Shown: piece by piece, positions 7,623 to 34,425 of the stretch
Numbering within the stretch: the first letter of the stretch is position 1
Layout: each line of letters starts with the position of its first letter
Virus record (IMG/VR): IMGVR_UViG_3300043448_000429
Coordinates: 1-35,442 of that record
Length of the DNA stretch: 35,442 nucleotides
Strand: one strand, 5' to 3'
Origin: a virus
Notes under the pieces: generated by a model
What the model was told of the DNA's origin: nothing
Database searches by the model: none
What the model saw: only the letters and a program-made list of their open reading frames with translations
Program-made: the position numbers and the translations under genes

Positions 7623-7650
7623 GATAAATACTCTATTAATGGAGTATTTA
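7623..7650 (+). promoter_or_regulatory. Late promoter inside an RBS-sequestering hairpin
   Basis: Late motif GATAAATA at 7623-7630. The 9-bp inverted repeat TAAATACTC (7625-7633) / GAGTATTTA (7642-7650), loop of 8, contains the promoter in its left arm and most of the GGAG ribosome binding site (7641-7644) in its right arm. Predicted late transcription start is about 7636, after the left arm. Late transcripts would therefore expose the GGAG, while readthrough from the clpA operon would hide it. Confidence 0.7.
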
Positions 7651-7652
7651 CC

Positions 7653-7817
7653 ATGGCAAAAATCGTAGAAGATGTAATAGTAATTAAACTAAGCAAAATT
7701 GTTAAAGATAGTGATCCTGCAACAGGAATAGCTAGTCCTGAAATACAAACTGCGCTTGAGCAAGTAGTTCAGGAACTAGTTGGTGATTCAGTAATAGTGG
7801 AACTGGTGCAAGCATAA
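7653..7817 (+). CDS. Small unknown protein, 54 aa
   Basis: A short frame beginning MAKIVEDVIVIKLSKIV and ending at TAA 7815-7817, which overlaps the next ATG by one base (TAATG). It has a GGAG ribosome binding site 8 nt upstream and a dedicated late promoter with a regulatory hairpin, which argues strongly for a real gene. The pattern is a hydrophobic strand, a polar turn, then a helix (EIQTALEQVVQELVGD) and a last strand. Function unknown; a structural or assembly role fits the neighbours. Confidence 0.75.
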   Translation: MAKIVEDVIVIKLSKIVKDSDPATGIASPEIQTALEQVVQELVGDSVIVELVQA

Positions 7818-8155
7818 TGTCACAGGCCACTACCCTTATATTGCTTTCTCAGACTCCGTTTGGATCAGGTCCAAACTTAGTGGGAGAAAAGCAGCCCGCA
7901 GCTTCCTATTATTTAGGTAAAAGCGACTTACAAACACTTACTTGGAACTTCACTAACGTTTCAGCGACGGTAGTTATACAGGCAAGTTTGTCAGAAAATC
8001 CAACGAATACAGATTGGTTCAATGTCTACACATTGAGTCCTAGTTCTACAACAGAACTGGGATTTTATAATTTATCTGGTAACTTTGTTTGGTTACGTGT
8101 CAACATCACAAACTTTACTACCGGTGTCATACAATATGTAAAGGTAAGTTACTAA
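7817..8155 (+). CDS. Small beta-rich protein, probable virion component
   Basis: A 112-aa protein of mostly beta character, with repeated NFT/NVS-type strands (LTWNFTNVSATVVIQASL, then FVWLRVNITNF) that suggest a beta-sandwich like small tail or capsid decoration domains. There are no charged catalytic patterns. It overlaps the preceding stop by one base and the following ATG by one base (TAATG at 8153-8157), so it is translated with its neighbours. The structural role is inferred. Confidence 0.7.
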   Translation: MSQATTLILLSQTPFGSGPNLVGEKQPAASYYLGKSDLQTLTWNFTNVSATVVIQASLSENPTNTDWFNVYTLSPSSTTELGFYNLSGNFVWLRVNITNFTTGVIQYVKVSY

Positions 8156-8892
8156 TGTCTACTATAGTCACAGAAGGCGGGAACGTAGTTCCAGACGCAA
8201 AACCAGTAACAAGAAAAAATGTACAAACTGTTGTAGATAATCTACAGAAATTAATGCCTAAAGGTATTCGTGTACATCCTATAGGCAGTGCAGGTAAAAA
8301 AGATGTAAGTAGTGACATGGATGTATTGATTGACGCAGGAGAATTGATGACTGTATTTCCTGCTAAAGAATTAAAATTGAGTCGCAAGGCACTAGAGGAA
8401 TACTTCCAATCTAAAGGAATGTTTGCTGCACGTAGCGGGGTTAGTGTACATATTGGTGTACCAACAGGTGAAGGTAATGACGTAACACAAGTTGATATTA
8501 TGGCTGTAGAAAATGCAGCAGACGTTGTTCCGTTACATACACATGATTATAGTAGAGATCCTGCAATGAAAGGTGGAACATTACATGGTATGTGGGCGGA
8601 CTTAACTAATATGAGTTCATTACCAGAACATCCTAGTTTGATGATGAGTCCATATAAGGGTTTAGTAGACAGACAAACAAAAGAATTAATTACAAGTAAT
8701 AAAGATAAGATAGCAAAAATTATTATTGGACCTAGTGCAAGTGCAGAGGATATGGGAAGTGTACATGCACTATTAACTGCACTACGTCAATACCCAGACA
8801 AGTACAGAGCAATAAAAGATAAGTGGGCACCTAACTTAGAATTAAATGAAGATAATTCTTGGTTTAGATATTTGTTAAATGTGTTAAAATGA
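8155..8892 (+). CDS. Pol-beta superfamily nucleotidyltransferase
   Basis: A 245-aa protein starting at the ATG that overlaps the previous stop; an in-frame upstream ATG at 8089 would lie deep inside the preceding gene and add an unlikely Cys/His-rich leader. The Pol-beta signature is clear: GS (44-45), then SD-x-D (D54, D56) and a third acid in VDIM (D114). Such enzymes transfer a nucleotide to nucleic acid, protein or antibiotic. The C-terminal half is helical and unassigned. It opens a run of three overlapping genes with nucleotidyltransferase-type motifs; substrate unknown. Confidence 0.85.
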   Translation: MSTIVTEGGNVVPDAKPVTRKNVQTVVDNLQKLMPKGIRVHPIGSAGKKDVSSDMDVLIDAGELMTVFPAKELKLSRKALEEYFQSKGMFAARSGVSVHIGVPTGEGNDVTQVDIMAVENAADVVPLHTHDYSRDPAMKGGTLHGMWADLTNMSSLPEHPSLMMSPYKGLVDRQTKELITSNKDKIAKIIIGPSASAEDMGSVHALLTALRQYPDKYRAIKDKWAPNLELNEDNSWFRYLLNVLK

Positions 8893-10037
8893 AAATACAA
8901 TCATTACTAGAGGCAGCAGGGCAAGTAGGTCGTAAATATCAACATATTGAGGACTTAGTGATTGCCAACGGTAGTCATGGAGCAATGCATGCCATAGAAC
9001 GTCTAGATAATATGATTGACAGATATGATTCTATTGAGTTAAAGTGGGACGGTATGCCTGTAGTATATTGGGGCCGTGATGATAATGGTACATTTTATAT
9101 GATACCAAAAAATGCATGGCAATATTTAAAATCAGGAACAATGCAAACAAAAGCGGGAGCCCCTACATTAACTAAAAGCCCACAAGATGTAATGAAATTT
9201 ATATTGGGTACAGGCGGAGAGGCTGATGCAAGCCGTATGCAATTCGCAAAACAGTTTGCAAGTTTATGGCCTTACTTAGAAAAAGCAAGTCCTGTGCGTG
9301 GTTTTTTAGAAGGTGGATTATTATTTTATCCAGGTACAAAACCAGATGGACAAAGTGCTATGCCTGTATTAAACAAGAATACAAATACATATGATTTTAA
9401 ACCTAACATAACAGCATTCCATGTTCCAGTTGATAGTGATTTAGGTAAAAGAATATCAAAAGCAAAAGTAATGATAGCTGCAACAGGATATTATGACAAA
9501 TTGGGTAGTAGTGAGGAAGGTAGATATGAGGATGCTCAACAACTTTCTACTCCTGAAACAATAGTACAAGGTACTACATATGCTGAAGAATTACCAGGTG
9601 TTGATAAATCTGGATTACAAAATTTATCAAAGTTTATACAAGCAAATGCACAGAAAATAGATAATTTTCTATCACCTAAGCCTGGCATGAACAATCCAGG
9701 TGGTGAATTATATACATATTTAAATCAGCATTTAAGAACAAGTGGGTTGTTAAGAGATTTTCCTGCATGGGCGCAACAAAACTTAAGCGCAAAAAAAGCA
9801 CAAACATTATTAAGTGACCCTGAAGGGTTAAAAGCAACATTAGGTGCGGTAGAAGCTATAACTAATGAAAAAATGAAAGTGATTAAATCACTAAGTTTGG
9901 GATTACATGGCGGTATAATGCAAACTAACCCAGAAGGATATGCACAAGCACATCCTGAAGTTAATTTCAAATACCCACTGCCCGGACAGTTTTTAAAATT
10001 AATAGATCAACTTAGTTGGCAACCGAGAAAATTATGA
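8889..10037 (+). CDS. Tagged KxDG ligase-like protein (cyanophage DUF6267-type)
   Basis: A 382-aa protein that begins with the capsid-tag-like MKIQSLLE followed by AAGQ. It carries KWDG (52-55), matching motif I of DNA/RNA ligases and capping enzymes where Lys is adenylylated, then RGFLEGGLLF (137-146), similar to motif III, and a FKPNITAFHVPVDSDLG stretch (170-186). These features recall a family common in T4-like cyanophages (DUF6267 from memory). Nucleotide transfer or ligation is inferred; the later ligase motifs are not obvious. It overlaps both neighbours by 4 nt, between a Pol-beta type and an HxGH type protein, suggesting joint action. The tag would predict presence in the virion. Confidence 0.75.
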   Translation: MKIQSLLEAAGQVGRKYQHIEDLVIANGSHGAMHAIERLDNMIDRYDSIELKWDGMPVVYWGRDDNGTFYMIPKNAWQYLKSGTMQTKAGAPTLTKSPQDVMKFILGTGGEADASRMQFAKQFASLWPYLEKASPVRGFLEGGLLFYPGTKPDGQSAMPVLNKNTNTYDFKPNITAFHVPVDSDLGKRISKAKVMIAATGYYDKLGSSEEGRYEDAQQLSTPETIVQGTTYAEELPGVDKSGLQNLSKFIQANAQKIDNFLSPKPGMNNPGGELYTYLNQHLRTSGLLRDFPAWAQQNLSAKKAQTLLSDPEGLKATLGAVEAITNEKMKVIKSLSLGLHGGIMQTNPEGYAQAHPEVNFKYPLPGQFLKLIDQLSWQPRKL

Positions 10038-11383
10038 TACAACGTACAAAAGGTAAAACAGCAGTAGTAGGATGGGGTCGTGGCATGGGACATAAAGGTC
10101 ACATGTTATTAGCTAGTGCGGTTATACATCAAGCAAAGGCTATCAATGCTACACCTATTTTTATTTTGAGTAGAACAAGTTTAATAGATCCTAATACTGG
10201 TGATTTATGGGCTGATACCAAAAAAGTTAGATCAACAAAAGACGATCCATTGACTCCACAAGAAAAACTTGCAATATATCAGAAGACATTTCCTGAAAAC
10301 GCAAAGATTTTTACTGTAGCAGACGGTGAATCAGGATCACTTAACGATGCATTAGCAAATTTGGCTAAGCAAGGATTCAGTAATGTTGTATTAGTAGTTG
10401 GCGCAGATCAAAAAAATGCATTCCAATATTTGGTAAATCCAAGCAAAGATGGTTCAATACCATATCAACAAATGGGTTTACAAAATTTAGTAGTTATGAG
10501 TAGACAAGAAACACAAGCACCCGGTAGTGACATAGAAGGCCCAAGAGCTACTCCTATGCGTCAGGTTCTATTAGACCCGAACGTTAGTGACGAACAAAGG
10601 TTTGCAGTATGGCGAGATGCTATGCCAGACAGTTTAAGTGATAAGGAAGTGTTTGATTTAATGCAGAAAGCGCAACAAAGATTAGGTAGAGCAGAACAAG
10701 TTGCACCTCCTAAAGCAGCTAAATTAAAAGAATTTATTCAGCGTGTTCGCCCTATGCTTAAAGAGGCAAGCATAGAAAAGAAAGTACAGGTTCTTAAATT
10801 TATTAAAGAATCAATGTTGAAAGAATTTGTAGATACATCAGGTGATGGCGGTAAAGAAGATCCTGACTCTTTTCCATTAAATAAATTTGCTGATATTATA
10901 GAACAATACTTAGGTCGTGGATATACAAGACAGGATAGAGAAAAACCTGAACAAGTTAGTGTGAAGTTTGAACCAAAAGACAAATCTCGCAACGGAGCAA
11001 TACTTTACAGTGTAGTGGGCAAGCGAGGTGAATACCCTACTGTTAATATTCATTTACTTGACTATGAACAAGGATTCGGCAGAGGTCGCAAAGCCGGTGT
11101 TGCAATACCAAAAACTAGAGACAATGCACTTAAACTAGCAGAGTTAATTTTTAATGCACAGTTAAACGAATTTGAAGTGAATGAAGCAGAAGAACCATAC
11201 AATCTACCACAGCGACATACTATGGATTACGGAATGCGTAAAACAATGATTCATCGTTTGGCTAAAGCTACAGACTATGAAATCAGCGCATTAAGTCTAG
11301 CTAGTGACGAAGAATTAACCGATTTGTACAAACAAGTATTCCCAGATCAAGATATAAACGAAGATTATCTAGACGAAAAATAA
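10034..11383 (+). CDS. HxGH nucleotidylyltransferase-like protein with C-terminal extension
   Basis: A 449-aa protein; I chose the ATG at 10034 because it overlaps the previous stop as ATGA, rather than a TTG 18 nt earlier. The N-terminus GWGRGMGHKGHMLLA contains H20-x-G22-H23, the nucleotide-binding signature of the cytidylyltransferase/NMNAT superfamily, and GPRATPMRQ (about residue 175) resembles their ISxTxxR motif. The first 200 residues form this domain. The rest (about 230-449) is an unassigned extension with a basic central part and acidic end. Third of three overlapping nucleotidyltransferase-type genes; substrate unknown. Confidence 0.8.
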   Translation: MIQRTKGKTAVVGWGRGMGHKGHMLLASAVIHQAKAINATPIFILSRTSLIDPNTGDLWADTKKVRSTKDDPLTPQEKLAIYQKTFPENAKIFTVADGESGSLNDALANLAKQGFSNVVLVVGADQKNAFQYLVNPSKDGSIPYQQMGLQNLVVMSRQETQAPGSDIEGPRATPMRQVLLDPNVSDEQRFAVWRDAMPDSLSDKEVFDLMQKAQQRLGRAEQVAPPKAAKLKEFIQRVRPMLKEASIEKKVQVLKFIKESMLKEFVDTSGDGGKEDPDSFPLNKFADIIEQYLGRGYTRQDREKPEQVSVKFEPKDKSRNGAILYSVVGKRGEYPTVNIHLLDYEQGFGRGRKAGVAIPKTRDNALKLAELIFNAQLNEFEVNEAEEPYNLPQRHTMDYGMRKTMIHRLAKATDYEISALSLASDEELTDLYKQVFPDQDINEDYLDEK

Positions 11384-11434: not shown

Positions 11435-12361
11435 ATGGCTAAGAAAAAACAAACCCAAGAAGCTACTGTCCCTGTAGAGCAGGTTCAGGAAGCAATTCAA
11501 GAAATACAAGAACAAGATGCTCCAGCAGCTCCTGCTCAAAATCAAGTACAAGTTAACGTAGACTTCTTAAAAACTACCCGTGTACACATAGCTATGCCAT
11601 GCTATGGTGGTATGTTGACCGAATCTACATTTATGAGTTTCATTAAATGGGCTAATACAGCCCGTCAATTGGGGATTGACTGGACATTGGAAACAATGGT
11701 TAACGAAAGTCTAATCAGTCGTGCCCGCAATACACTAACTGCAAAGTTTTTAGACCAAGCTGAATCAACACACTTATTCTTTGTTGATGCTGATATTGGT
11801 TGGGAGCCATGGCACTTGTTAGTATTATTGAACCGTGACAAAGACGTTATCGGTGGACTATATCCTATGAAGACTATGCCAATCAAGTGGGTAGTCAATG
11901 GATTTGAGGGTGCCGAAGAAGGTCCTGATGGACTACAAGAAGTTAGTAAAGCAGGCACTGGTTTCTTACTAATGAAGAAGCATGTATTTGAGAAACTAAA
12001 TGTTCACCCTGCAGTTAAACAGTACAAGAACGACATTGGTCTAGATCCAAAGTATGACAAGTACCTAAAGACATATTTTGATACAGCAGTCCGTCAAAAT
12101 CGTTACTACAGTGAGGACTGGACCTTCTGTGAAAACTGGCGTGATCTAGGTGGTAAAGTTTATGTTGATAAGCGTGTATTATTACGTCACAGTGGTGCAT
12201 ATGTATTCTGTATGGAAAATCAGCAACATTTGTTAAACACAATTGGACCTATGTATGTTCAGGAACAACAGAATCAAGCAGCACAACAAGCACAAGCAAG
12301 TGCAGCACCTGTTGACGCAGGAACTACAAAGGCAACAAAGAAAAGTAAAAAGACAGCATAA
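11435..12361 (+). CDS. GT-A type glycosyltransferase
   Basis: A 308-aa protein with a Gln/Pro-rich disordered leader (1-42), a catalytic domain from VHIAMPCYGG (50-59) to about 265, and an Ala/Gln/Lys-rich tail. FFVDADIGW (115-123) contains the DxD-type DAD (118-120) that binds the metal and nucleotide sugar. The YSEDWTFCENWRDLGG segment supplies the ED acid pair typical of the fold. It may decorate virion proteins or phage DNA. It has its own regulatory hairpin and is followed by a strong terminator, so it forms a single-gene unit. Confidence 0.88.
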   Translation: MAKKKQTQEATVPVEQVQEAIQEIQEQDAPAAPAQNQVQVNVDFLKTTRVHIAMPCYGGMLTESTFMSFIKWANTARQLGIDWTLETMVNESLISRARNTLTAKFLDQAESTHLFFVDADIGWEPWHLLVLLNRDKDVIGGLYPMKTMPIKWVVNGFEGAEEGPDGLQEVSKAGTGFLLMKKHVFEKLNVHPAVKQYKNDIGLDPKYDKYLKTYFDTAVRQNRYYSEDWTFCENWRDLGGKVYVDKRVLLRHSGAYVFCMENQQHLLNTIGPMYVQEQQNQAAQQAQASAAPVDAGTTKATKKSKKTA

Positions 12362-12416: not shown

Positions 12417-12424
12417 GATAAATA
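12417..12424 (+). promoter_or_regulatory. Late-promoter-like motif GATAAATA
   Basis: GATAAATACT lies directly after the terminator T run and 4 nt before the ATG at 12429. With T4 spacing, transcription would begin at about the start codon, so the message would be leaderless; no Shine-Dalgarno is present. Confidence 0.65.
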
Positions 12425-12428
12425 CTCT

Positions 12429-13514
12429 ATGAACCTTAAGGAATTAGCTAATTTTAAACTGCATGATGCAGTATTTTTTCATGACCAACTAAATCCAGTG
12501 ATTTTTTTGGGAGATAAGATGCGCCCCGAAGTCAGAACCCAATTAATTTTAATTGCTGAAGATTTTATAGATCATTTGGGAATCCCGCATTTAGAAGTAG
12601 AAGATGTAACAGTTTCAGGGTCGAATGCAGCTTACACCTACACAAAACATAGCGACATTGATCTACATATTTTAGTAGATATGAAAAAATTAAATGATGA
12701 TATTATCTACCGTGAGTTATTTGATGCTAAGAAAACTATCTATAATGACACACATGACATTCAAATAGGTGGATATGACGTTGAACTATATGTACAAGAT
12801 ACGAATCAACCTGTAATCAGTTTGGGTGAGTACAGCGTTGTAAATGATGAATGGATTAGATTACCTAAGAAACATCGTTCTAATTTAGACCAGGCTGCTA
12901 CTAGATTAAAATTCAATAAACTAGCAAGATTAGCAGAATTGGCACTAAAGAATGATGATGAAAAAAGAATAAAAAATTTGTTAAAAACAGTCAAAAAATA
13001 CAGACAAGCAGGACTTGATATGCATGGTGAATTCGGGCCTGAAAATTTAGCATATAAAGCACTACGTAGTAAAGGCATTCTTAAAAAATTATACGATAAG
13101 ATAAATTCACTACATAGCGATAATTTAAGTTTAGCCGAAGAAGAAAAATTATTAGATAAACCAACTCAAACACTAAGAAAACTTGCTAGCAAACATCATG
13201 TATTAATTCAAGACCTATATCAACAACTAAAAAAGGGTATAGGTGTTGAAATGGAACATACTAACCATCCTAGTGTAGCAAGAGAAATAGCAATGGATCA
13301 TTTAGCTGAAAATCCATATTATTACGATGAATTAAATAAAGTTGGTTTAGAAGAGGGAGCGAGTGGGTATATACCTAGTCCTAAACAAAAAAATGACCCT
13401 CGATATAAAACAGGATTAACAGTAGATGTTACTCCATATAGCATACAAGATAATGCTAAAAAATTAGGTAGTAAAATAAGTAGGGCAGGTATACCACCCT
13501 TACTAAGACCATAA
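12429..13514 (+). CDS. Pol-beta type nucleotidyltransferase with DUF5661-like C-terminal domain
   Basis: A 361-aa protein. The signature GSNAAYTYTKHSDIDLHIL gives GS (64-65), SD-x-D (D76, D78) and a third acid around DVELY (117-121), all expected for an active Pol-beta fold. A lysine-rich helical middle follows. Around 270-305 is EHTNHPSVAREIAMDHLAEN with PYYYDEL just after, a pattern I associate from memory with DUF5661 in phages and environmental bacteria. The C-terminus ends GIPPLLRP. It precedes the tail-fibre block and shares its transcript. Substrate unknown; it could act on RNA, protein or a small molecule. Confidence 0.83.
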   Translation: MNLKELANFKLHDAVFFHDQLNPVIFLGDKMRPEVRTQLILIAEDFIDHLGIPHLEVEDVTVSGSNAAYTYTKHSDIDLHILVDMKKLNDDIIYRELFDAKKTIYNDTHDIQIGGYDVELYVQDTNQPVISLGEYSVVNDEWIRLPKKHRSNLDQAATRLKFNKLARLAELALKNDDEKRIKNLLKTVKKYRQAGLDMHGEFGPENLAYKALRSKGILKKLYDKINSLHSDNLSLAEEEKLLDKPTQTLRKLASKHHVLIQDLYQQLKKGIGVEMEHTNHPSVAREIAMDHLAENPYYYDELNKVGLEEGASGYIPSPKQKNDPRYKTGLTVDVTPYSIQDNAKKLGSKISRAGIPPLLRP

Positions 13515-26300: not shown

Positions 26301-26944
26301 ATGAAAATAATACTGACTTTGATGACAGGTCACCTCAGGACACATATATTCAAAGTAAAACTTCTTTAACCAGTAGAGATGGTGTTGATGATATTAGCAA
26401 AAGAGTGGCGTCACTAAGTACTGACAGGCACGGAAATCAACGTGTAAGAGCAATTGATACTAATAGAGATTTGGGTGATGAAGTAACAATTAATACTATG
26501 ATACCAAAAGGTGTAAAAGCTAAAATAGTTCCTCAACAAGGTAATGCAAATATAGAAGAAGCAGAAAAATTATCAGCACGTGAGAAATTCAAACGTGGAT
26601 TAAAACGTGCAGGATATGATCCTGATGCCGGTGCAGATAGATTATTACGATTGATTGCTAGACAAGCAGAAGAACGTAAAGAATTTGAAAGAAAACAAAA
26701 AGAACAGGATGAAGAATTCTACAAAAATAGAAAATTAAAAGAACAAGATCCTCAACCAAATAGTAATCAACAAGATCAACCAAAGTCAAATAAATTGTTT
26801 GATGTACTAAAGAGTATAGGTGATGTTGCATTACCAGTTGGCAGAGCTATTTATGGTATGCAGGGAAGAGATGTACCAGCTGACATAAAAAGTGATGTAA
26901 AAACAATGATACGAAATAAAGTTACAGGCGAGCCAAACAAATGA
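23315..26944 (+). CDS. Tagged 1209-aa apparent polyprotein with repeated prohead-protease-like sites
   Basis: Begins with the tag-like MKIKQLSE, then short modules separated by hydrophobic-x-E junctions. Sites after E56, E121, E196, E220, E307, E377, E431, E535, E547, E632, E666, E696, E716, E771 and E1082 read VDE-G, IKE-G, VDE-G, VAE-G, LAE-G, LEE-G, VKE-D, IAE-H, LSE-N, LNE-A, LDE-K, IQE-G, INE-K, MAE-A and IEE-A, close to the T4 gp21 rule (L/I)-x-E. Modules include a basic KSFCARMSG to RRWNC piece (484-516), KWVRFGPDGKIRGDC to KCLPQSKA (551-588), two CW-x(18-20)-PNCV units (634-690), CPECGG (701-706) and a CYYKVKSRYKVWPSAYASGA to NWG piece (721-753). The last third is helical and Gln-rich. 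Probably internal virion cargo cut during maturation; cleavage is inferred. Confidence 0.8.
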   Translation: MKIKQLSETTAGAVASVAMPLGSTHKRTEEAANPAQQAAIAVNMKKTGKKPKKVDEGTYKGPHGEMDVDRSKKGVTKVSRKDYEASYPNVANVGKDVSDYDLNLHPNKPHISLSKVKKIKEGDTEPQFVEINPNSFLDDDFYAFDPETKVLKGTWSHKSVGRRHHEYEAQQKGYEVVSGMKAKRLGLVRKQKQVDEGGFDIPEIPRAPTPKPPKEKDVAEGAGRSFLEIVDDFLVDYSGSQSGDTYSWTDGKKVIEVEMDPSDNGTVYWALGIAGRTGKTNWVESGSDNPKDALRVVKNFAKNSLAEGMFGLSDKEKGKIQNIAIEISDIPGYWDWKRDTFTPYGVLALEKALDDNKHYVKYALSLTADDYYYDLEEGKDESLRKAVTDFDYNKNNQQPVAPSPEQKAQIKKDVSDYNKEKEEKQKQGVKEDWQKVNRKDKTSGMSSKAVKAYRRENPGSKLKTAVTTKPSKLKRGSKAAKRRKSFCARMSGNKGPMKKPNGKPTPKALALRRWNCESIEDMRKLIENAEKFIAEHKQINNEKSLSENLHKWFKEKWVRFGPDGKIRGDCARGDDSEGKPKCLPQSKAQNLGKKGRASAAARKRREDPNPERSGKAINVATKKKTNEADLNEACWKGYHKEGNKKMFGKTYPNCVKNTNEEQQLDEKCWDTHKQVGMKKKGGKMVPNCVPKESIQEGHQQCPECGGAMYSEEMINEKKDACYYKVKSRYKVWPSAYASGALVKCRKKGAKNWGTKSESIDTKSNILKGMAEAKLREEELLLAPGQGVRFKTELMPKRTDHEVEMARNQLRSSFENAKDIYQNIKDLSEIQGLDGWVQAKITKASDYLEAVNQYIEGKKEMLEIQSEVDHQVEEQYPAQQYSPKGVPLKRAPVAPTNVPQGWQANTQADGSTRISKQGSMSRDQYQQNMANYKAQNWTPQNIADYDRRMASGQGYSDAEKYANYQAGVKASGREDPETLAMLIPDENVRNQLQQPTNENNTDFDDRSPQDTYIQSKTSLTSRDGVDDISKRVASLSTDRHGNQRVRAIDTNRDLGDEVTINTMIPKGVKAKIVPQQGNANIEEAEKLSAREKFKRGLKRAGYDPDAGADRLLRLIARQAEERKEFERKQKEQDEEFYKNRKLKEQDPQPNSNQQDQPKSNKLFDVLKSIGDVALPVGRAIYGMQGRDVPADIKSDVKTMIRNKVTGEPNK
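25214..25384 (+). repeat. Tandem duplicated CW/PNCV module in the polyprotein
   Basis: Two consecutive units, residues 634-655 and 668-690, each run CW-x(2)-H-K-x(2)-G-x-K-K-x-(F/G)-G-K-x-(Y/V)-PNCV with small spacing differences, and each is preceded by a hydrophobic-x-E junction (LNE-A, LDE-K). This looks like duplication of one peptide with its processing site. Confidence 0.7.
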
Positions 26945-28212
26945 AATATATAGAACTATTTGAAGGTGCAGAACCACAACTACCAGGTGCACCTAGTGGT
27001 ATACAAATTATGACACCGCAACAATTTGTTGCTAAAAGTCAACAAGGTCAAGAACCAACTCCTGATGAAGAAGTTGATGAAGCTACTAAACTTCCAGCAA
27101 GCACACGTGAATTAAAAGGACAAGAACTAACAGATTATCTAGACCGTATTCGCGGCACTGCTGACATTGACAAAAAGACAGGCATGCCCAAAGTAGATAA
27201 AAAGGGCAAAGAAAAGTATATCAGTGGTAAAACTAAACTAGACAAGTACAGAATGCCCTACATTCATCGTAGTGCAGTATTAGGTTTCTATTCACCTGAA
27301 GGTAAGAAGTATGACATTGATAGATTAAAAGATGCAATGAAGCAGCGTCCTGCTAAGTTATTAAAGCAGAATGAAAAAATGAAACATAGTAATGGAGAAC
27401 TAGAACAATTCTTCAATATTGGTTTCGCTGCATTAGTTGGTTCTGCTGTTGATGAAACAACAAACGAAATTATTATTGTTAACACTTGTCCTGGCGCAGG
27501 ATCATGTAAAGTAGATTGCTTTGCTATGAAGGGTGGTAAAATTCAATATGATGGTCCTTGGTTAAGTGATGCACGTATTCTTACTTACTTACTAAATGAC
27601 CCTGAAGGATTTAAAGCGCAACTTAATAGTGAAATTGCAAAAGAGGCAAAAGCAGGTGCAACATACAAAAAAGGTCCATACAGTGTTTCTATTCGTTGGC
27701 ATGATGCAGGTGACTTTTTCAGTCCTGAATATTTAGGACTAGCATTTGATATTGCAAAAGCCAATCCTACAGTTAAATTTTATGCTTATACAAAAATGGC
27801 TAGTGCTGCTCTTGCTCAAAAGCCAGATAATTTTATTATCAATTGGAGTGAAGGTGCTCACACTAGTCAAGAAAAACAAGTAAAAGCGGCTGATCCTAAT
27901 TTAGAGCGTACAAAGAACTCACGTATTGTACCAGAAAAATTATTCTGGGACTTGTTAGTAAAAGACGAAAAAGGTAATTTAGTTAAGGGCAGCGAAGGAC
28001 AATGGCAAGTTCAACCTGATAAATTAAAAGAGTTAAAACAAAGATTAGGGCAAGCATATGGTATTAGTCCAAGCTCTATTCTATCATACGATGAATATAC
28101 ATCAAGACCAAAAACAGGTGGAATGAAATACAATGTTATTGTTGCGCCAGGTGAAGGTGATATTAGCGCAAACGATCTTGGCGTGCTAAGTACATTATTA
28201 TTGAGACATTAA
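26941..28212 (+). CDS. Tagged Gp88-like cysteine protein
   Basis: A 423-aa protein starting MKYIELFE-GAEP, tag-like, with a second possible processing site VDE-A (45-48) after a Pro/Gln-rich linker. The core has CPGAGSCKVDCFA (C183, C189, C193), SDARILTYLLNDPEGF (209-224), a RWHDAGDFFSPEYL segment (252-265) and FYAYTK (280-285). This order resembles the phage Gp88/DUF7227-type family as I remember it; its activity is not established, though the clustered cysteines suggest a metal or iron-sulfur site. It overlaps the polyprotein gene by ATGA and is followed after 1 nt by the Dps gene. Confidence 0.72.
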   Translation: MKYIELFEGAEPQLPGAPSGIQIMTPQQFVAKSQQGQEPTPDEEVDEATKLPASTRELKGQELTDYLDRIRGTADIDKKTGMPKVDKKGKEKYISGKTKLDKYRMPYIHRSAVLGFYSPEGKKYDIDRLKDAMKQRPAKLLKQNEKMKHSNGELEQFFNIGFAALVGSAVDETTNEIIIVNTCPGAGSCKVDCFAMKGGKIQYDGPWLSDARILTYLLNDPEGFKAQLNSEIAKEAKAGATYKKGPYSVSIRWHDAGDFFSPEYLGLAFDIAKANPTVKFYAYTKMASAALAQKPDNFIINWSEGAHTSQEKQVKAADPNLERTKNSRIVPEKLFWDLLVKDEKGNLVKGSEGQWQVQPDKLKELKQRLGQAYGISPSSILSYDEYTSRPKTGGMKYNVIVAPGEGDISANDLGVLSTLLLRH

Positions 28213-29166: not shown

Positions 29167-29871
29167 ATGACAGAAATCTTATATACACTTATCTGCACAC
29201 ATATTACAATCGTGTGCGTAACACTTTTCTTACATCGTAGCCAAGCACATAAAGGAATAGAGTTCAATCCTATCGTAAGTCATTTTATGCGTTTTTGGTT
29301 ATGGCTTACAACAGGCATGGTTACTAAACAATGGGTAGCTATTCATCGTAAACATCATAGATTTTGCGAATCAGAGGGCGACCCACATAGTCCAGTTACA
29401 TACGGCATTTGGCGTGTACTATTCAAAGGAGCATTACTTTATAATGACGCAAGCAAAGATAGTGAAATGGTTAATAGTTACGGTGTTGGGACTCCTGATG
29501 ATTGGATCGAGCGCAATGTATACACTCCTCACAGCAGACTTGGCATTAGTATTCTCCTTGTGTTCAACCTCATTGTCTTTGGTTGGCTGGGCGCCATAAT
29601 ATGGGGCATACAAATGATATGGATACCCTTTTGGGCTGCAGGAGTAATTAATGGTATTGGTCATTGGTGGGGCTATCGTAATGGTGAAACTAAAGATCAA
29701 AGCAGAAACATTAGCCCTATAGGGTTTATCATAGGCGGAGAAGAATTACACAACAATCATCATTTAGATCCTGCTAGTCCTAAATTAAGTAATCGTTGGT
29801 ATGAACTTGACATCGGCTGGATATATCTACATATTTTACGTTTTTTCAAATTAGCTAAACTACGTACATAG
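29167..29871 (+). CDS. Fatty acid desaturase (acyl-CoA/acyl-lipid delta-9 type)
   Basis: A 234-aa membrane di-iron desaturase that would introduce a double bond into fatty acyl chains and change membrane fluidity. All three histidine boxes are present: HRSQAH (23-28), HRKHH (60-64) and HNNHH (196-200), with an extra His in GHWWGYRN (167). Hydrophobic segments near 6-23, 40-55, 125-150 and 150-166 fit the family. It is shorter than most bacterial relatives (about 300 aa) but looks complete. It ends in TAG. An auxiliary metabolic gene; whether host-derived cannot be told here. Confidence 0.93.
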   Translation: MTEILYTLICTHITIVCVTLFLHRSQAHKGIEFNPIVSHFMRFWLWLTTGMVTKQWVAIHRKHHRFCESEGDPHSPVTYGIWRVLFKGALLYNDASKDSEMVNSYGVGTPDDWIERNVYTPHSRLGISILLVFNLIVFGWLGAIIWGIQMIWIPFWAAGVINGIGHWWGYRNGETKDQSRNISPIGFIIGGEELHNNHHLDPASPKLSNRWYELDIGWIYLHILRFFKLAKLRT

Positions 29872-29878
29872 CCAAATA

Positions 29879-29899
29879 CGCATAAATACTAATTATGCG
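29879..29899 (+). promoter_or_regulatory. Late promoter with start-codon-sequestering hairpin
   Basis: CATAAATA (29881-29888) lies in the left arm of a perfect 7-bp inverted repeat CGCATAA (29879-29885) / TTATGCG (29893-29899), loop of 7. The right arm contains the ATG at 29895. Late transcription should start near 29894, removing the left arm; readthrough from the desaturase gene would hide the start codon. Confidence 0.7.
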
Positions 29900-30776
29900 C
29901 ATTTCAGACTTTAGAATTCACAACACACAAAAACTAGACCGTATTCTTGCAAAGTTATGCGAGATGATTATTGACGGACAAAAACGTGACCCTGACTACT
30001 ATGGTATGGTAGCAGCGTGTGTACTTGATACACAAGACGAGGCCGTTTGTGCAGTCAATTATCAAAAAGGTGACCAGCGAGTTCACGCCGAAAAAGCAGC
30101 AGTTGAAAAGTACATGAATCAATATGGAGACATCCCTGCAGGAAGTATTATAATTACCACACTAAGTCCATGCAGTGAGATGATGAGGGAACGCTACGGA
30201 GACGATTGCACAGACTTAATAGAACAGATAGGAGTGCATAAAGTATACTGCGGATATGAAGATCCTACACAAGATGACAGTAGTAACTATATGCATAAGA
30301 CATTTCATGTCATGTGTACTAGAAACGACAAAATCAAAGAACTATGTAAGTCCTTTGCAGATACTTTCTTAGAAAAAGAAAAGATAGCAGAGCATAAGCA
30401 AATAATGGAAGCAGTATTAAAAGTGAATACTGAAGAAATGGTTCCTAAATTTGTTGAGTGGTCTAGACGAGTATTGAAGCTCAAAACTAATCCCGAAATA
30501 GAATTAAGTTATGATACTGAAGAAGCACAAAAAGGACATCATACTGGTCGTCATACTACAGATGACAACAAAGTATGGGTTTATGCAAAGAATCGTAACT
30601 TAGTGGATATATTAAGAACAGTGTTTCACGAATTAGTTCATGTACGCCAAGGTGAGTTGAATATGATTAAGCCAGGTGATAGTTATCCTGGTAGTCCTAT
30701 TGAGCGTCAAGCAGATGAAATGGCTGGAAAGTTTATAAAGATATTTGGTGAAAAGCACCCTGAAATTTTTCAATAA
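29895..30776 (+). CDS. Deaminase-like domain fused to zincin-like metallopeptidase
   Basis: A 293-aa two-domain protein. Residues 1-150 carry the cytidine-deaminase fold signature: HAE (64-66) and PC (92-93) with a second Cys in the DDC at 103-105; the style resembles RibD-type deaminases. Residues 170-293 contain HELVH (245-249), a zinc HExxH motif, followed by IERQADEMAGKF (269-280) that could give the third ligand. The joint (164-170) reads IAEHKQI, identical to a stretch of the polyprotein (533-539), and could be cut after IAE. No Shine-Dalgarno; near-leaderless late transcript expected. Substrates unknown; a role in modifying host nucleotides or proteins is inferred. Confidence 0.82.
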   Translation: MRISDFRIHNTQKLDRILAKLCEMIIDGQKRDPDYYGMVAACVLDTQDEAVCAVNYQKGDQRVHAEKAAVEKYMNQYGDIPAGSIIITTLSPCSEMMRERYGDDCTDLIEQIGVHKVYCGYEDPTQDDSSNYMHKTFHVMCTRNDKIKELCKSFADTFLEKEKIAEHKQIMEAVLKVNTEEMVPKFVEWSRRVLKLKTNPEIELSYDTEEAQKGHHTGRHTTDDNKVWVYAKNRNLVDILRTVFHELVHVRQGELNMIKPGDSYPGSPIERQADEMAGKFIKIFGEKHPEIFQ

Positions 30777-31560: not shown

Positions 31561-32346
31561 ATGAAAGCAAGTGAATTTATAACAGAGTTATATGAACCAA
31601 AAACTAGTTTTCCATTAAACTGGTATCCAAGTCACCACCCTAGCGAAGCATCAGCTAGAGCATATGATAGGAACAAAGGTTACATAGATATTAAATTCAC
31701 TCCAATATTAGGTTCCGATGATATGGTTGAAGTAGAATTTAGTCGCAATGATAGTTATGACATGACTGGTGGCGGTGATGCTAACAGGGTATTAGGAACA
31801 GTATTACAAGCATTTCGAGAATACCTACAAGGTTATCAACCTAAAATACTAGTGTTTAGTGCAAAGGGTGCAAGCCGTAGTAAAGTGTATCAGAATTTAA
31901 TAAAACGATTTGCAAGTACTGTAGGTTACAAACAATTTGATATCAGTAAATTAAGTCCAGAAACACAAGAAAAAATTGCCTTTAGTGGTAGTGATCTTAT
32001 GGTATTAAGAAAATCACTGGTTAAAGAAGATATTAAACCTAGAACATATGCAGGTAACGTGCAGGCGGGTAATTATTTAGTTAAAATAGATCAACATCTT
32101 GTAGATAGAGCAGTTGAAAGAAATGTTCCACAGCATGAAATTATAAGCACAATGAATAAATTAAGTAAAGCCAAAGCTAAACTTAAAACTTTAGCTCCCG
32201 GTGAAAGTTTTTATATTCATGATAACACCAATGGTTTGTATGTATTATTTTATACTTTAGATTCTGATAGAAAAGTTTATATAGCCAGAACAGTTTGGCC
32301 CCATAAAAAGAAAGATAGTGTTTTACCGATTATTCAGGTGGCATGA
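31561..32346 (+). CDS. Tagged Alt-N-like protein with RNase-like C-terminal domain
   Basis: A 261-aa protein. The leader MKASEFITE-LYEP parallels T4 Alt (MELITELFDE), and the region after it (12-150) follows Alt's N-terminal domain in layout: a GGGDANRVLGTVLQAF stretch, then a strand and KGASRSKVYQNLIKRF. A VKE-D site (154-157) would separate a C-terminal domain (about 170-261) with HLVDRAVERNVP and a strand-rich end, like small RNase or toxin folds (DUF4258/RelE style); that part is uncertain. In T4, Alt is packaged and injected. The same is proposed here. Confidence 0.7.
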   Translation: MKASEFITELYEPKTSFPLNWYPSHHPSEASARAYDRNKGYIDIKFTPILGSDDMVEVEFSRNDSYDMTGGGDANRVLGTVLQAFREYLQGYQPKILVFSAKGASRSKVYQNLIKRFASTVGYKQFDISKLSPETQEKIAFSGSDLMVLRKSLVKEDIKPRTYAGNVQAGNYLVKIDQHLVDRAVERNVPQHEIISTMNKLSKAKAKLKTLAPGESFYIHDNTNGLYVLFYTLDSDRKVYIARTVWPHKKKDSVLPIIQVA

Positions 32347-32375
32347 TGAGAGCAAACGAATTTTTAATTGAGGGC
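32346..32375 (+). repeat. Tag-coding DNA repeat, copy A
   Basis: First 30 nt of the kinase-like gene, coding MRANEFLIEG. It differs from copy B at two third-codon positions only. Confidence 0.85.
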
Positions 32376-33041
32376 AACTGTCTATATAAAGAAGATGAAC
32401 TAGAAGAAATGGCTGGTGAGATTCATGGTGGAGTTCGTAAAGCACTAATAGATCAAGGCTACAAATATTTAGGTAGTGGGATTGATAAACAAGCATACTT
32501 AGAACCAAGTACAGGTCAAGCATTAATTATTTTTGGTTATAGAAAGAATATTGATGATTTCAGTCCTGATCAAAGAATGTTTATTGATTGGATTAAGTAT
32601 TGCAATGCTAATAAAAATAATCCAAATTTACCAAAATTTAGTGGCTTTGAAAGTTTTAAATTCCATGGCAAAAATTATATACAAGCTAGAATGGAACCAT
32701 TGCAAGAAGTAACCGATCAAGTAAAGAACCTTGTAAATTATCTTGAAACTGTAATAGATGAGATATCACAAGGTGACATAAATGCTGCCTTTGAATATTT
32801 GGCAAAAAAAGGTTATTATGATGAAAAAATAGACTACTTTAGACCTTACACAGTAAAACAAGTTGTAGATTATTTAGGCGGGCTAAAACGAGCAAAAAAC
32901 TTACTGCAAACTGTGCATGATGTTGCGGTGTTTGGCGCAAAAAACAATTATAACATAGATTTACATTCTGGTAATTATATGAAACGAGCTAACGGAACTA
33001 TTGTAGTGAACGATCCTTTTGTAATATGGTTGAGATCATGA
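32346..33041 (+). CDS. Tagged kinase-like protein
   Basis: A 231-aa protein from the second of two adjacent ATGs (32343, 32346). The second gives MRANEFLIE-GN as in its neighbours. A glycine-rich stretch YLGSGIDKQAYL (41-52) and the catalytic-loop-like DLHSGN (205-210) then NDPF (222-225) match the protein-kinase superfamily order (HxD-like loop, DFG-like). The VAIK lysine is unclear (K67 is nearest), so it may be atypical or inactive. The upstream stop overlaps the start. Overlaps the next gene by ATGA. Confidence 0.72.
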   Translation: MRANEFLIEGNCLYKEDELEEMAGEIHGGVRKALIDQGYKYLGSGIDKQAYLEPSTGQALIIFGYRKNIDDFSPDQRMFIDWIKYCNANKNNPNLPKFSGFESFKFHGKNYIQARMEPLQEVTDQVKNLVNYLETVIDEISQGDINAAFEYLAKKGYYDEKIDYFRPYTVKQVVDYLGGLKRAKNLLQTVHDVAVFGAKNNYNIDLHSGNYMKRANGTIVVNDPFVIWLRS

Positions 33042-33067
33042 GAGCAAATGAATTTTTAATTGAAGGC
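33038..33067 (+). repeat. Tag-coding DNA repeat, copy B
   Basis: First 30 nt of the ADP-ribosyltransferase-like gene; 28 of 30 bases match copy A, and the first 21 match copy C exactly. Confidence 0.85.
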
Positions 33068-33490
33068 AATCGTTTGTATCATGCTACCACTCCCCAAGGT
33101 TTCAGAGGTATGTTAAAAACCGGTTACATCTTACCGAGCAGTCCAGAAATACAACACGGTTGGGGATTTGGTGCCACAGGAATCGATGATGGCACTATAA
33201 GCATGACCCGTGACCCACGTTATTTGGTGTTTGATATTGTAGACACACAAATCATCTTAGATCGTGAGGCACTACAGCGTCATCATAAAATCACGCCATA
33301 TGGCAGTGAAGGAGAATTTGAAGAACGTGTTACTAAAGCTATTCCCTTTACTAATGTATATGTTAAAAAGGTTATCTTCCTTGACGAAAGACCTGGGCCC
33401 AAAACACTAAGAAAATTAAAAGATTTAGGAATTCCTTATATCACTAAGTGGCCTGATAATCCGATAGATCGATATAGGATGTATAAATGA
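33038..33490 (+). CDS. Tagged ADP-ribosyltransferase-like protein
   Basis: A 150-aa protein from the ATG that overlaps the previous stop (33038-33041). A frame start 12 nt earlier would add MVEI before the shared tag and is less likely. After MRANEFLIE-GN comes LYHATTPQGFRGMLKTGY, then ISMTRDPRYL (54-63) and EFEERV (93-98). This H/Y, S-T and E order resembles the ADP-ribosyltransferase superfamily, but I cannot verify the fold. T4 Alt and Mod are ADP-ribosyltransferases, so a tagged small relative fits. Targets unknown. Confidence 0.68.
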   Translation: MRANEFLIEGNRLYHATTPQGFRGMLKTGYILPSSPEIQHGWGFGATGIDDGTISMTRDPRYLVFDIVDTQIILDREALQRHHKITPYGSEGEFEERVTKAIPFTNVYVKKVIFLDERPGPKTLRKLKDLGIPYITKWPDNPIDRYRMYK

Positions 33491-33507
33491 GAGCAAATGA
33501 ATTTTTA
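33487..33507 (+). repeat. Tag-coding DNA repeat, copy C
   Basis: First 21 nt of the gene are identical to copy B, then the sequence diverges after the codons for MRANEFL. Confidence 0.85.
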
Positions 33508-34425
33508 GTAGAATACAAGCGGGACGTAACTATACAAAAGTTAGGTCAACCACTATATCAAAAAATGATTAATGATAGAACCGTACAAAGAATATACGGT
33601 GATGACCCATTACAAAATATTGATCCAAACGAAATAATTGAGTTTGGTATTGATAGATTTCAAGAGGCTGACCCTACACCCAATAAACAATTTGTACCTT
33701 GGTTAGTAAGACTATACGCAAAAGACCCTACATTTAAGTTTGAAGATGTACTAAGTCAAGTTCATCCTTACTTAGAAAAGTTTTATAAATTAAACATGCG
33801 TAAGAAAATTCCTAGTCCACGCAATGATGTAAATCGTTATGCAAGCTTTGCAGATTTTATGGGCGTAATGGATGAATATGAAGATCCTGATAAAGTAGAA
33901 CTAAAAGATAAAGGTCGTGCATTTACATTATATGATGACGAAAATTGGCGTGTTATAGTTCCACAAAACGAAGCAGCATCGTGTTACTATGGTCAAGGCA
34001 CACGTTGGTGCACTGCTGCTACAAAAGCAAATAATATGTTTGAATATTATGAAAGTATAGCTCCATTACTTATTGCAATACCAAAAAAGCCTAAATATCC
34101 CGGAGAAAAATATCAACTACATTTTGGTATATCTATTGATGATAATCCAGTGAAAAGTGATTCTGATGCTTTAGATTATGCGAGCCAATCAAGTGATTAT
34201 GCCGGTTACGATTGGAGTGATTACCTTAGTAGTGATGATGTAGATATTGATTTTGAATACGGTCAAATAATGGATGAACGAGATAATCCTGTAGCAGGTC
34301 CTACCATTATTACAAGAATGGGTGATAGTTGGGAAAATATGCTAAATGCGTATGTTCAAAAATTCCCTAAACATCAATGGCAACTAGAAAAGAATTTAGA
34401 GCAACTGGATACAGGGTTTATTTAA
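33487..34425 (+). CDS. Tagged WCTA-motif protein of unknown function
   Basis: A 312-aa protein that begins within the previous stop (ATGA, 33487-33490) with MRANEFLVE-YK. The N-terminal half is helical. Residues 154-213 read WRVIVPQNEAASCYYGQGTR then WCTAATKANNMFEYY and YQLHF, a motif layout seen in proteins of large phages and viruses, function unknown to me. The acidic C-terminus contains many Asp/Ser/Tyr. It closes the run of tagged genes. Confidence 0.72.
   Translation: MRANEFLVEYKRDVTIQKLGQPLYQKMINDRTVQRIYGDDPLQNIDPNEIIEFGIDRFQEADPTPNKQFVPWLVRLYAKDPTFKFEDVLSQVHPYLEKFYKLNMRKKIPSPRNDVNRYASFADFMGVMDEYEDPDKVELKDKGRAFTLYDDENWRVIVPQNEAASCYYGQGTRWCTAATKANNMFEYYESIAPLLIAIPKKPKYPGEKYQLHFGISIDDNPVKSDSDALDYASQSSDYAGYDWSDYLSSDDVDIDFEYGQIMDERDNPVAGPTIITRMGDSWENMLNAYVQKFPKHQWQLEKNLEQLDTGFI

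Follow-up and report, generated by a model that had tools for sequence, protein, structure and literature searches.

Gene content of the locus

The window analyzed here is the whole of IMG/VR virus record IMGVR_UViG_3300043448_000429, a 35,442-base fragment of a phage genome that can be assigned to a T4-like phage on the basis of its clamp loader, PhoH, tail fibers, DnaJ, and Clp protein. Three adjacent genes in this window, called A, B, and C, encode nucleotidyltransferases of different types, and their products are very probably packaged in the phage head and processed there by a protease. The genes are as follows.

8155 to 8892, forward strand: gene A, a Pol-beta superfamily nucleotidyltransferase with the family-X palm-plus-thumb fold (invariant residues, AlphaFold2 model, and VIA comparison)
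8889 to 10037, forward strand: gene B, DUF6267, a KxDG covalent nucleotidyltransferase with a ligase-type core (PF19782, invariant residues, AlphaFold2 model, and VIA comparison)
10034 to 11383, forward strand: gene C, an HxGH nucleotidyltransferase of the cytidylyltransferase/NMNAT type, followed by a tail with a variable middle (phrog_3041 and alignment)

Gene A starts with the ATG at 8155, and A/B and B/C are each joined by an ATGA overlap of 4 nucleotides, so the three-gene operon at 8155 to 11383 described in the first-pass annotation of this DNA is borne out in both coordinates and overlaps. That annotation also proposed that three unrelated nucleotidyltransferases cooperate here, perhaps to heal and seal tRNA. 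The enzyme types and the cooperation hold up in the results below, whereas the role in tRNA repair finds no support.

Three types of nucleotidyltransferase

In the 21 aligned sequences of A, residues G44, S45, D54, and D56 and a third Asp, D114, are invariant, and the AlphaFold2 model (predicted local distance difference test [pLDDT] score, 88; predicted template modeling [pTM] score, 0.80) has a clear family-X fold, in agreement with the earlier description of a Pol-beta type protein with GS and DxD motifs. The best 50 listed PDB matches to this model in Foldseek are all family-X DNA polymerases (E about 1e-6). VIA gives a Z of about 10.5 over residues 13 to 203 against the palm plus thumb of Pol beta/lambda, the listed rows are again all family X, and the minimal AsfvPolX reaches a Z of 10.2. 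None of the 21 members matches a family-X Pfam profile at E up to 1. Thus, the likeness of A to family X is one of fold.

Protein B matches PF19782 (DUF6267) with 49.4 bits (cut-off, 27); all 63 aligned B sequences match this profile at E up to 1. It carries K52-W-D54-G55, E141-G142, P348-E349-G350, and K370, among which K52, D54, G55, G142, E349, G350, and K370 are invariant in the 63 sequences at identities down to 22%. The invariant residues past KxDG can be placed in ligase motifs III, IV, and V by pattern and order. In VIA comparisons of the AlphaFold2 model (pLDDT, 92; pTM, 0.88), every one of the best 50 rows is an RNA or DNA ligase, with a best Z of 7.0 that lies under the caution level of Z 8, and Foldseek returned no match at E under 0.001. 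The earlier reading of B as a KxDG ligase-like protein is therefore firm with respect to the invariant K52, D54, and G55 but only moderate with respect to the fold of the ligase core. A helix-rich insert of about 140 residues precedes motif IV. The protein ends 12 residues past K370, so that motif V is not followed by an OB or other C-terminal domain. Because of this insert and the absence of an OB domain, adenylyl transfer by B is better supported than ligation, judging from the model. A separate DNA ligase is encoded by two relatives, whose replicative ligase is therefore not B; a search of four relatives for an NAD-dependent DNA ligase family found none.

The HxGH motif of C is H20-K-G-H23, and the downstream R176 is invariant in the alignment. 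The protein matches phrog_3041, a PHROG cytidyltransferase, with an E of 6.9e-15. A Pfam search of the window C gave no match, and marine members of the family match PF01467. We assign C from its sequence to the HxGH cytidylyltransferases and NMNAT-type proteins, which confirms the third nucleotidyltransferase type of the first-pass annotation. The middle of the tail, at about residues 260 to 377, is variable; this middle (10800 to 11200) is swapped between close relatives, and both ends of the tail are conserved. One tail, at locus L035, has a weak SprT-like match and another, at L015, has an HELVHH motif, both being metallopeptidase-like.

Structure prediction yielded the expected folds, clearly for A and moderately for B, and the key residues of all three proteins are kept in relatives, where they are invariant or nearly so. 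No useful hit came from sequence-profile searches of A, B, and C against solved structures. In PADLOC, none of the three window proteins was matched, and the fused protein of L035 had a weak match to an oligonucleotide cyclase (E=0.0013).

Gene order and fusions among relatives

Relatives were collected in an IMG/VR scan, which gave 39 close loci, and in two further profile-search sets of up to 80, for a comparison of 197 loci in which some contigs were entered more than once. With “=” denoting a single open frame, 69 loci have the architecture A B C, 22 have A=B C, 19 have A=B=C, and 14 have A B=C, the rest being incomplete or B only. Gene A occurs without B in none of the 197 loci, and the order A-B-C is constant wherever all three are present. 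Together with the occurrence of all four joining states, this indicates that the adjacency is not due to chance, and it bears out the expectation that the three genes would co-occur in other phages. In a phylogeny of 77 B sequences, the state of the A-B junction changes at least 4 times and that of the B-C junction at least 6 times; thus, joining or splitting of these genes has recurred. Functional cooperation of A, B, and C is supported by these patterns, since the order is conserved and the fusions are recurrent.

B was found by tblastn in 60 annotated phage records, and DUF6267 is present in cultured cyanophages, a pelagiphage, and methylophages. Among cellular genomes, it occurs in only 12 contigs, all from metagenome-assembled genomes, which we read as stray phage. 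Searches of cultured phages by tblastn with two variants of A found none. The structural matches to A include a protein of Agrobacterium phage Atu_ph07 (UniProt A0A2L0UZB9), along with viral family-X polymerases, and a profile search did not place an A-like protein in the Atu_ph07 genome.

In the marine relatives HTVC008M, Melnitz, P-HM1, and S-CAM9, B and C remain near each other, and a different gene lies ahead of B. The A slot of marine relatives (L040, 6272 to 7357; L041, 5908 to 6966; L043, 6240 to 6980) is occupied by other proteins, several of which have a PKxD...SxKxG pattern like that of PD-(D/E)xK nucleases, a reading made by pattern with no Pfam match. The pelagiphage HTVC008M also encodes a kinase of the Zeta-toxin/AAA_33 type (L041, 8703 to 9365; PF06414, E=3.1e-13) between B and C, and this kinase could be an end-healing enzyme.

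These comparisons bear upon the proposal that the trio repairs tRNA or another RNA in the infected cell, with A adding lost nucleotides, B sealing, C preparing ends or a cofactor, and packaging being absent or incidental. The best VIA rows for B are RNA ligases, and the large relatives have 28 or more tRNA genes and a transfer-messenger RNA (tmRNA), as such a role might lead one to expect. However, the nearest likeness of A is to DNA polymerase X, and none of its 21 members has a Pfam match to RlaP (PF10127), just as none of the 63 B sequences has one to the RNA_ligase family (PF09414). Neither RlaP nor RNA_ligase was found in four large relative records, and no kinase or phosphatase was recognized in the window operon. 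The proposal also leaves unexplained the protease-type sites described below. We consider it improbable; tRNA repair by the trio is possible but unsupported.

Separately, two of the large relatives, G003 and G001 (loci L063; L068-L069; L064, L075, and L076), contain predicted tRNAs in arrays of 28 and about 46, respectively, along with predicted permuted tmRNAs. One tRNA predicted in G001 has the anticodon CTA and is called tRNA-Pyl.

Protease-type sites at N termini and domain junctions

The internal proteins of T4 start with a short capsid-targeting peptide, which the protease gp21 cleaves off after L/I-x-E (PMC9026906); the N terminus of IPIII, for instance, is MKTYQEFIAE/A (the slash marks the cut here and below). 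Sites of this type, which the first-pass annotation overlooked, lie before A and B, after the catalytic domain of C, and between the fused domains of relatives. Those in the window are as follows.

8155 to 8175, forward strand: predicted propeptide of A, MSTIVTE/GGN (low-confidence model end; motif in relatives)
8889 to 8912, forward strand: predicted propeptide of B, MKIQSLLE/AAG (low-confidence model end; motif in relatives)
10757 to 10810, forward strand: paired protease-type sites in C, MLKE/A (E244) and FIKE/S (E259) (motif; recurs in relatives)

The predicted propeptides are disordered in both models and coincide with ends whose pLDDT is under 50 (residues 1 to 7 of A and 1 to 15 of B). 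A, B, and many of the C proteins in these phages open much as the T4 internal proteins do, with ...LLE/GGN in A, ...LLE/AAG in B, and ...LFE/NI in C. A strict motif, [LI]xE[AGSTND] immediately ahead of the domain core, was counted over nonredundant relatives and is present in 29 of 31 A proteins (expected fraction, 0.002), 37 of 47 B proteins (0.011), and 17 of 48 C proteins (0.041). The B of the window is among those that carry strict [LI]xE. When P3 is relaxed to accept V or F as well, the motif is present in all 21 A=B fusion junctions and in 18 of the 19 B=C junctions. Inside the domains, it is depleted relative to shuffled sequences (per domain, 0.03 versus 0.53 in A, 0.40 versus 1.01 in B, and 0.10 versus 0.45 in C), and other proteins of the same phages have no such internal depletion. 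In the group of relatives to which the window belongs, C is without an N-terminal site and instead has a pair, LKE/A ... IKE/A or S, where the catalytic domain meets the variable tail; the pair recurs in four close relatives (L002, L005, L012, and L014). A gp21-family protease (PF03420) is encoded in three large relatives, of 260 kb, 345 kb, and 68 kb. The presence of protease-type sites at the N termini of A and B, in C, and at the fusion junctions points to packaging in the head.

The same motifs could alternatively be linkers or docking peptides, in which case A, B, and C would be ordinary cytosolic enzymes. Cleavage at these sites is predicted, and some C proteins (that of the window included) and some marine B proteins have no N-terminal site, as this explanation would allow. 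However, free N termini and fused junctions share one P3/P1 pattern, the motif is depleted inside the domains, relatives encode the protease, and a homologue of C that has a T4-like targeting peptide is found in virions. A linker or docking function thus seems to us at least as improbable as RNA repair.

A genome-wide excess of the motif at N termini is clear only in the window and is modest in three relatives (G001, G003, and G007). At 31561 to 34425, four consecutive genes with unrelated bodies open with T4-like peptides that are nearly identical to one another (MKASEFITE, MRANEFLIE, MRANEFLIE, and MRANEFLVE), and they look like further head-packaged cargo. The first of them has a weak match to the RegB endoribonuclease (PF10715, E=1.2e-4). 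A GP88-family protein (26941 to 28212; PF17338, E=9.7e-24) has the N terminus MKYIELFE/G and is a candidate for another cargo protein.

Homologues in cyanophage virions

The virion proteome of cyanophage S-CREM2, determined by mass spectrometry, includes gp154 and gp156 (PMC10665884). The former is a homologue of C (hidden Markov model [HMM] E=2.4e-36) with the N terminus MKNFSSFLTE/A. The latter is a homologue (33% over 222 amino acids) of a fourth protein of the window.

12429 to 13514, forward strand: gene D, a second Pol-beta type nucleotidyltransferase plus DUF5661 (NTP_transf_2 match; likeness to S-CREM2 gp156)

The match of D to NTP_transf_2 has an E of 0.002, which is below the Pfam cut-off; with this qualification, the fourth Pol-beta type protein that had been reported at 12429 is confirmed. 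A T4-IPIII-shaped motif is found in six nonstructural S-CREM2 proteins, five of which were detected in virions (Fisher p=1.7e-4).

S-CREM2 virions also carry an S-adenosylmethionine (SAM) hydrolase and a kinase (PMC10665884). Such proteins fit what we regard as the strongest rival explanation, namely, that the trio is packaged and injected but modifies host proteins, nucleotide signals, or NAD+ pools, immediately disabling defenses or redirecting metabolism in the manner of T4 Alt. In that case, A and B would transfer nucleotidyl groups and C would carry out NMN or CTP chemistry. The RegB-like endoribonuclease among the window genes with similar N-terminal motifs is also consistent with it, as is the variability of the C tails, which is expected of conflict proteins; furthermore, a survey of polyvalent proteins places Pol-beta nucleotidyltransferases among their protein-modifying domains (PMC5512222). 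On the other hand, A matches template-using family-X polymerases over both palm and thumb and B matches nucleic acid ligases. In both, the catalytic set is complete, and their pairing is constant; a joint task on nucleic acid fits these features better. We therefore regard action on host proteins or signals as unlikely.

Late-promoter-like sites and neighboring genes

Further features of the window flank the trio.

7623 to 7632, forward strand: GATAAATACT, a late-promoter-like site that heads the gene run at 7653 to 11383 (exact copies; ATAAATA enrichment)
11435 to 12361, forward strand: glycosyltransferase-like gene between C and D (phrog_1574, E=2.2e-33; weak Anp1 match)

The sequence ATAAATA is the core of T4 late promoters. 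It is enriched in the 50 nucleotides before the genes of the window, with 6 occurrences versus 1.1 in shuffles. Identical copies of GATAAATACT are located at 7623, 12417, and 23284, each just upstream of a gene run, and that at 12417 precedes D. These sites fit late expression of A-B-C and D along with the head genes, although they are suggestive only.

The glycosyltransferase-like gene is a conserved neighbor, and the gene order is the same in close relatives. Just upstream of the trio, genes for DnaJ and for an AAA ATPase of the Clp type lie between 3885 and 6957; the ATPase is a conserved neighbor of the trio in many relatives. At a greater distance (29167 to 30776) are genes for a fatty acid desaturase (PF00487, E=2.8e-16) and a protein of the cytidine/dCMP deaminase type (PF00383, E=2.1e-10).

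A proposed model for the trio as processed head cargo

We propose that A, B, and C are late, head-targeted proproteins of a T4-like phage. Entry into the prohead would depend on a short capsid-targeting-like peptide at the N terminus of each protein, on fusion into a polyprotein, or, for the C of the window, on association. A gp21-type prohead protease cutting after L/I-x-E would then remove the propeptides, separate fused domains, and detach the variable tail of C, and the mature enzymes would be injected with the genome into the bacterium. There, A, as a minimal family-X-type polymerase, and B, as a ligase-type covalent nucleotidyltransferase, may fill and seal gaps or breaks in nucleic acid. 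Gap filling and sealing is the simplest joint role because A is polymerase-like, B is ligase-like, and the two are always adjacent and often fused. If the enzymes are delivered with the genome, the incoming DNA would be the nearest substrate, and it is a more likely one than tRNA. C may supply adenylyl or cytidylyl transfer of the HxGH type, possibly converting NMN to NAD+.

Cleavage, injection, and the repair role are steps that we infer, and the parts of the proposal differ in strength. Packaging together with a joint nucleic acid role of some kind is reasonably likely. The more specific assignment of A and B to filling and sealing is tentative, with the balance close to even. The full sequence of events, in which the prohead protease separates the parts of a packaged polyprotein, the enzymes, once injected, fill and seal gaps in the incoming genome (or cleaved tRNAs), and C regenerates the nucleotide cofactor, is doubtful as a whole.

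Several observations weigh against the proposal. The A of the window has V at P3 and so departs from the strict motif, and the C of the window is without an N-terminal site. The window fragment itself contains no gene for the protease (PF03420). The motif statistics are drawn from related, nonindependent sequences, and the p-values serve as guides. In S-CREM2, the T4-IPIII-shaped motif was chosen after the list of virion proteins had been seen, a looser N-terminal motif test was not significant (p=0.33), and contamination of the virions was not excluded by the authors of that study (PMC10665884). Mass spectrometry backs only C and D; the packaging of A and B is predicted rather than observed because neither was found in S-CREM2 by HMM. 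Finally, the modest fold match of B (Z 7.0) and its lack of an OB domain make ligation uncertain.

Comparison with known systems

T4 IPI to IPIII and Alt resemble the trio in having a short N-terminal peptide ending in L/I-x-E, a late-promoter-like site, and a variable gene set whose products go with the DNA (PMC9026906). They also share a gp21-type protease, found in relatives in the case of the trio. Unlike those proteins, the trio consists of three nucleotidyltransferases in a fixed order, often as one polyprotein with sites at its junctions, and packaging of A and B is a prediction. The polyvalent proteins described by Iyer et al. in 2017 (PMC5512222) likewise combine several enzymatic domains in one protein or in adjacent ones, with proposed delivery during invasion and proteolytic separation. 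However, separation there is attributed to a built-in peptidase, whereas for the trio it is predicted to depend on the prohead protease, and the set of family-X-like, DUF6267, and HxGH domains was not found in the passages of that account consulted.

African swine fever virus provides a parallel for A and B in AsfvPolX and AsfvLIG (PDB 5hrf and 6imn), a minimal family-X polymerase with a partner ligase. AsfvLIG appears weakly among the Foldseek rows for B. The likeness is one of fold and pairing only, with no relationship claimed, and B has no OB domain. S-CREM2 gp154 resembles C in homology, in its T4-like N-terminal peptide, and in its detection in virions (PMC10665884) but, unlike the C of the trio, is encoded without A or B in the genome, as judged by HMM. 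In RlaP/Rnl RNA repair systems (PMC7824862), as in the trio, a Pol-beta nucleotidyltransferase adjoins a ligase-type enzyme; in contrast, A and B do not match the RlaP and RNA_ligase families, and no end-healing enzyme was recognized in the window operon. The trio is most likely processed head cargo akin to T4-type internal proteins and polyvalent proteins.

Implications

The proposal suggests a function that can be tested for DUF6267, which has until now been listed as a family of unknown function; if the trio does act as a virion-borne repair kit, this would be the first function for the family. It also offers a rule for reading other genomes, in that injected proteins of T4-like phages may be recognizable from sequence alone by a prohead-protease-type site that either opens the protein or separates its fused domains. 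Such phages may deliver nucleic acid-processing enzymes together with the genome, before any phage gene is expressed.

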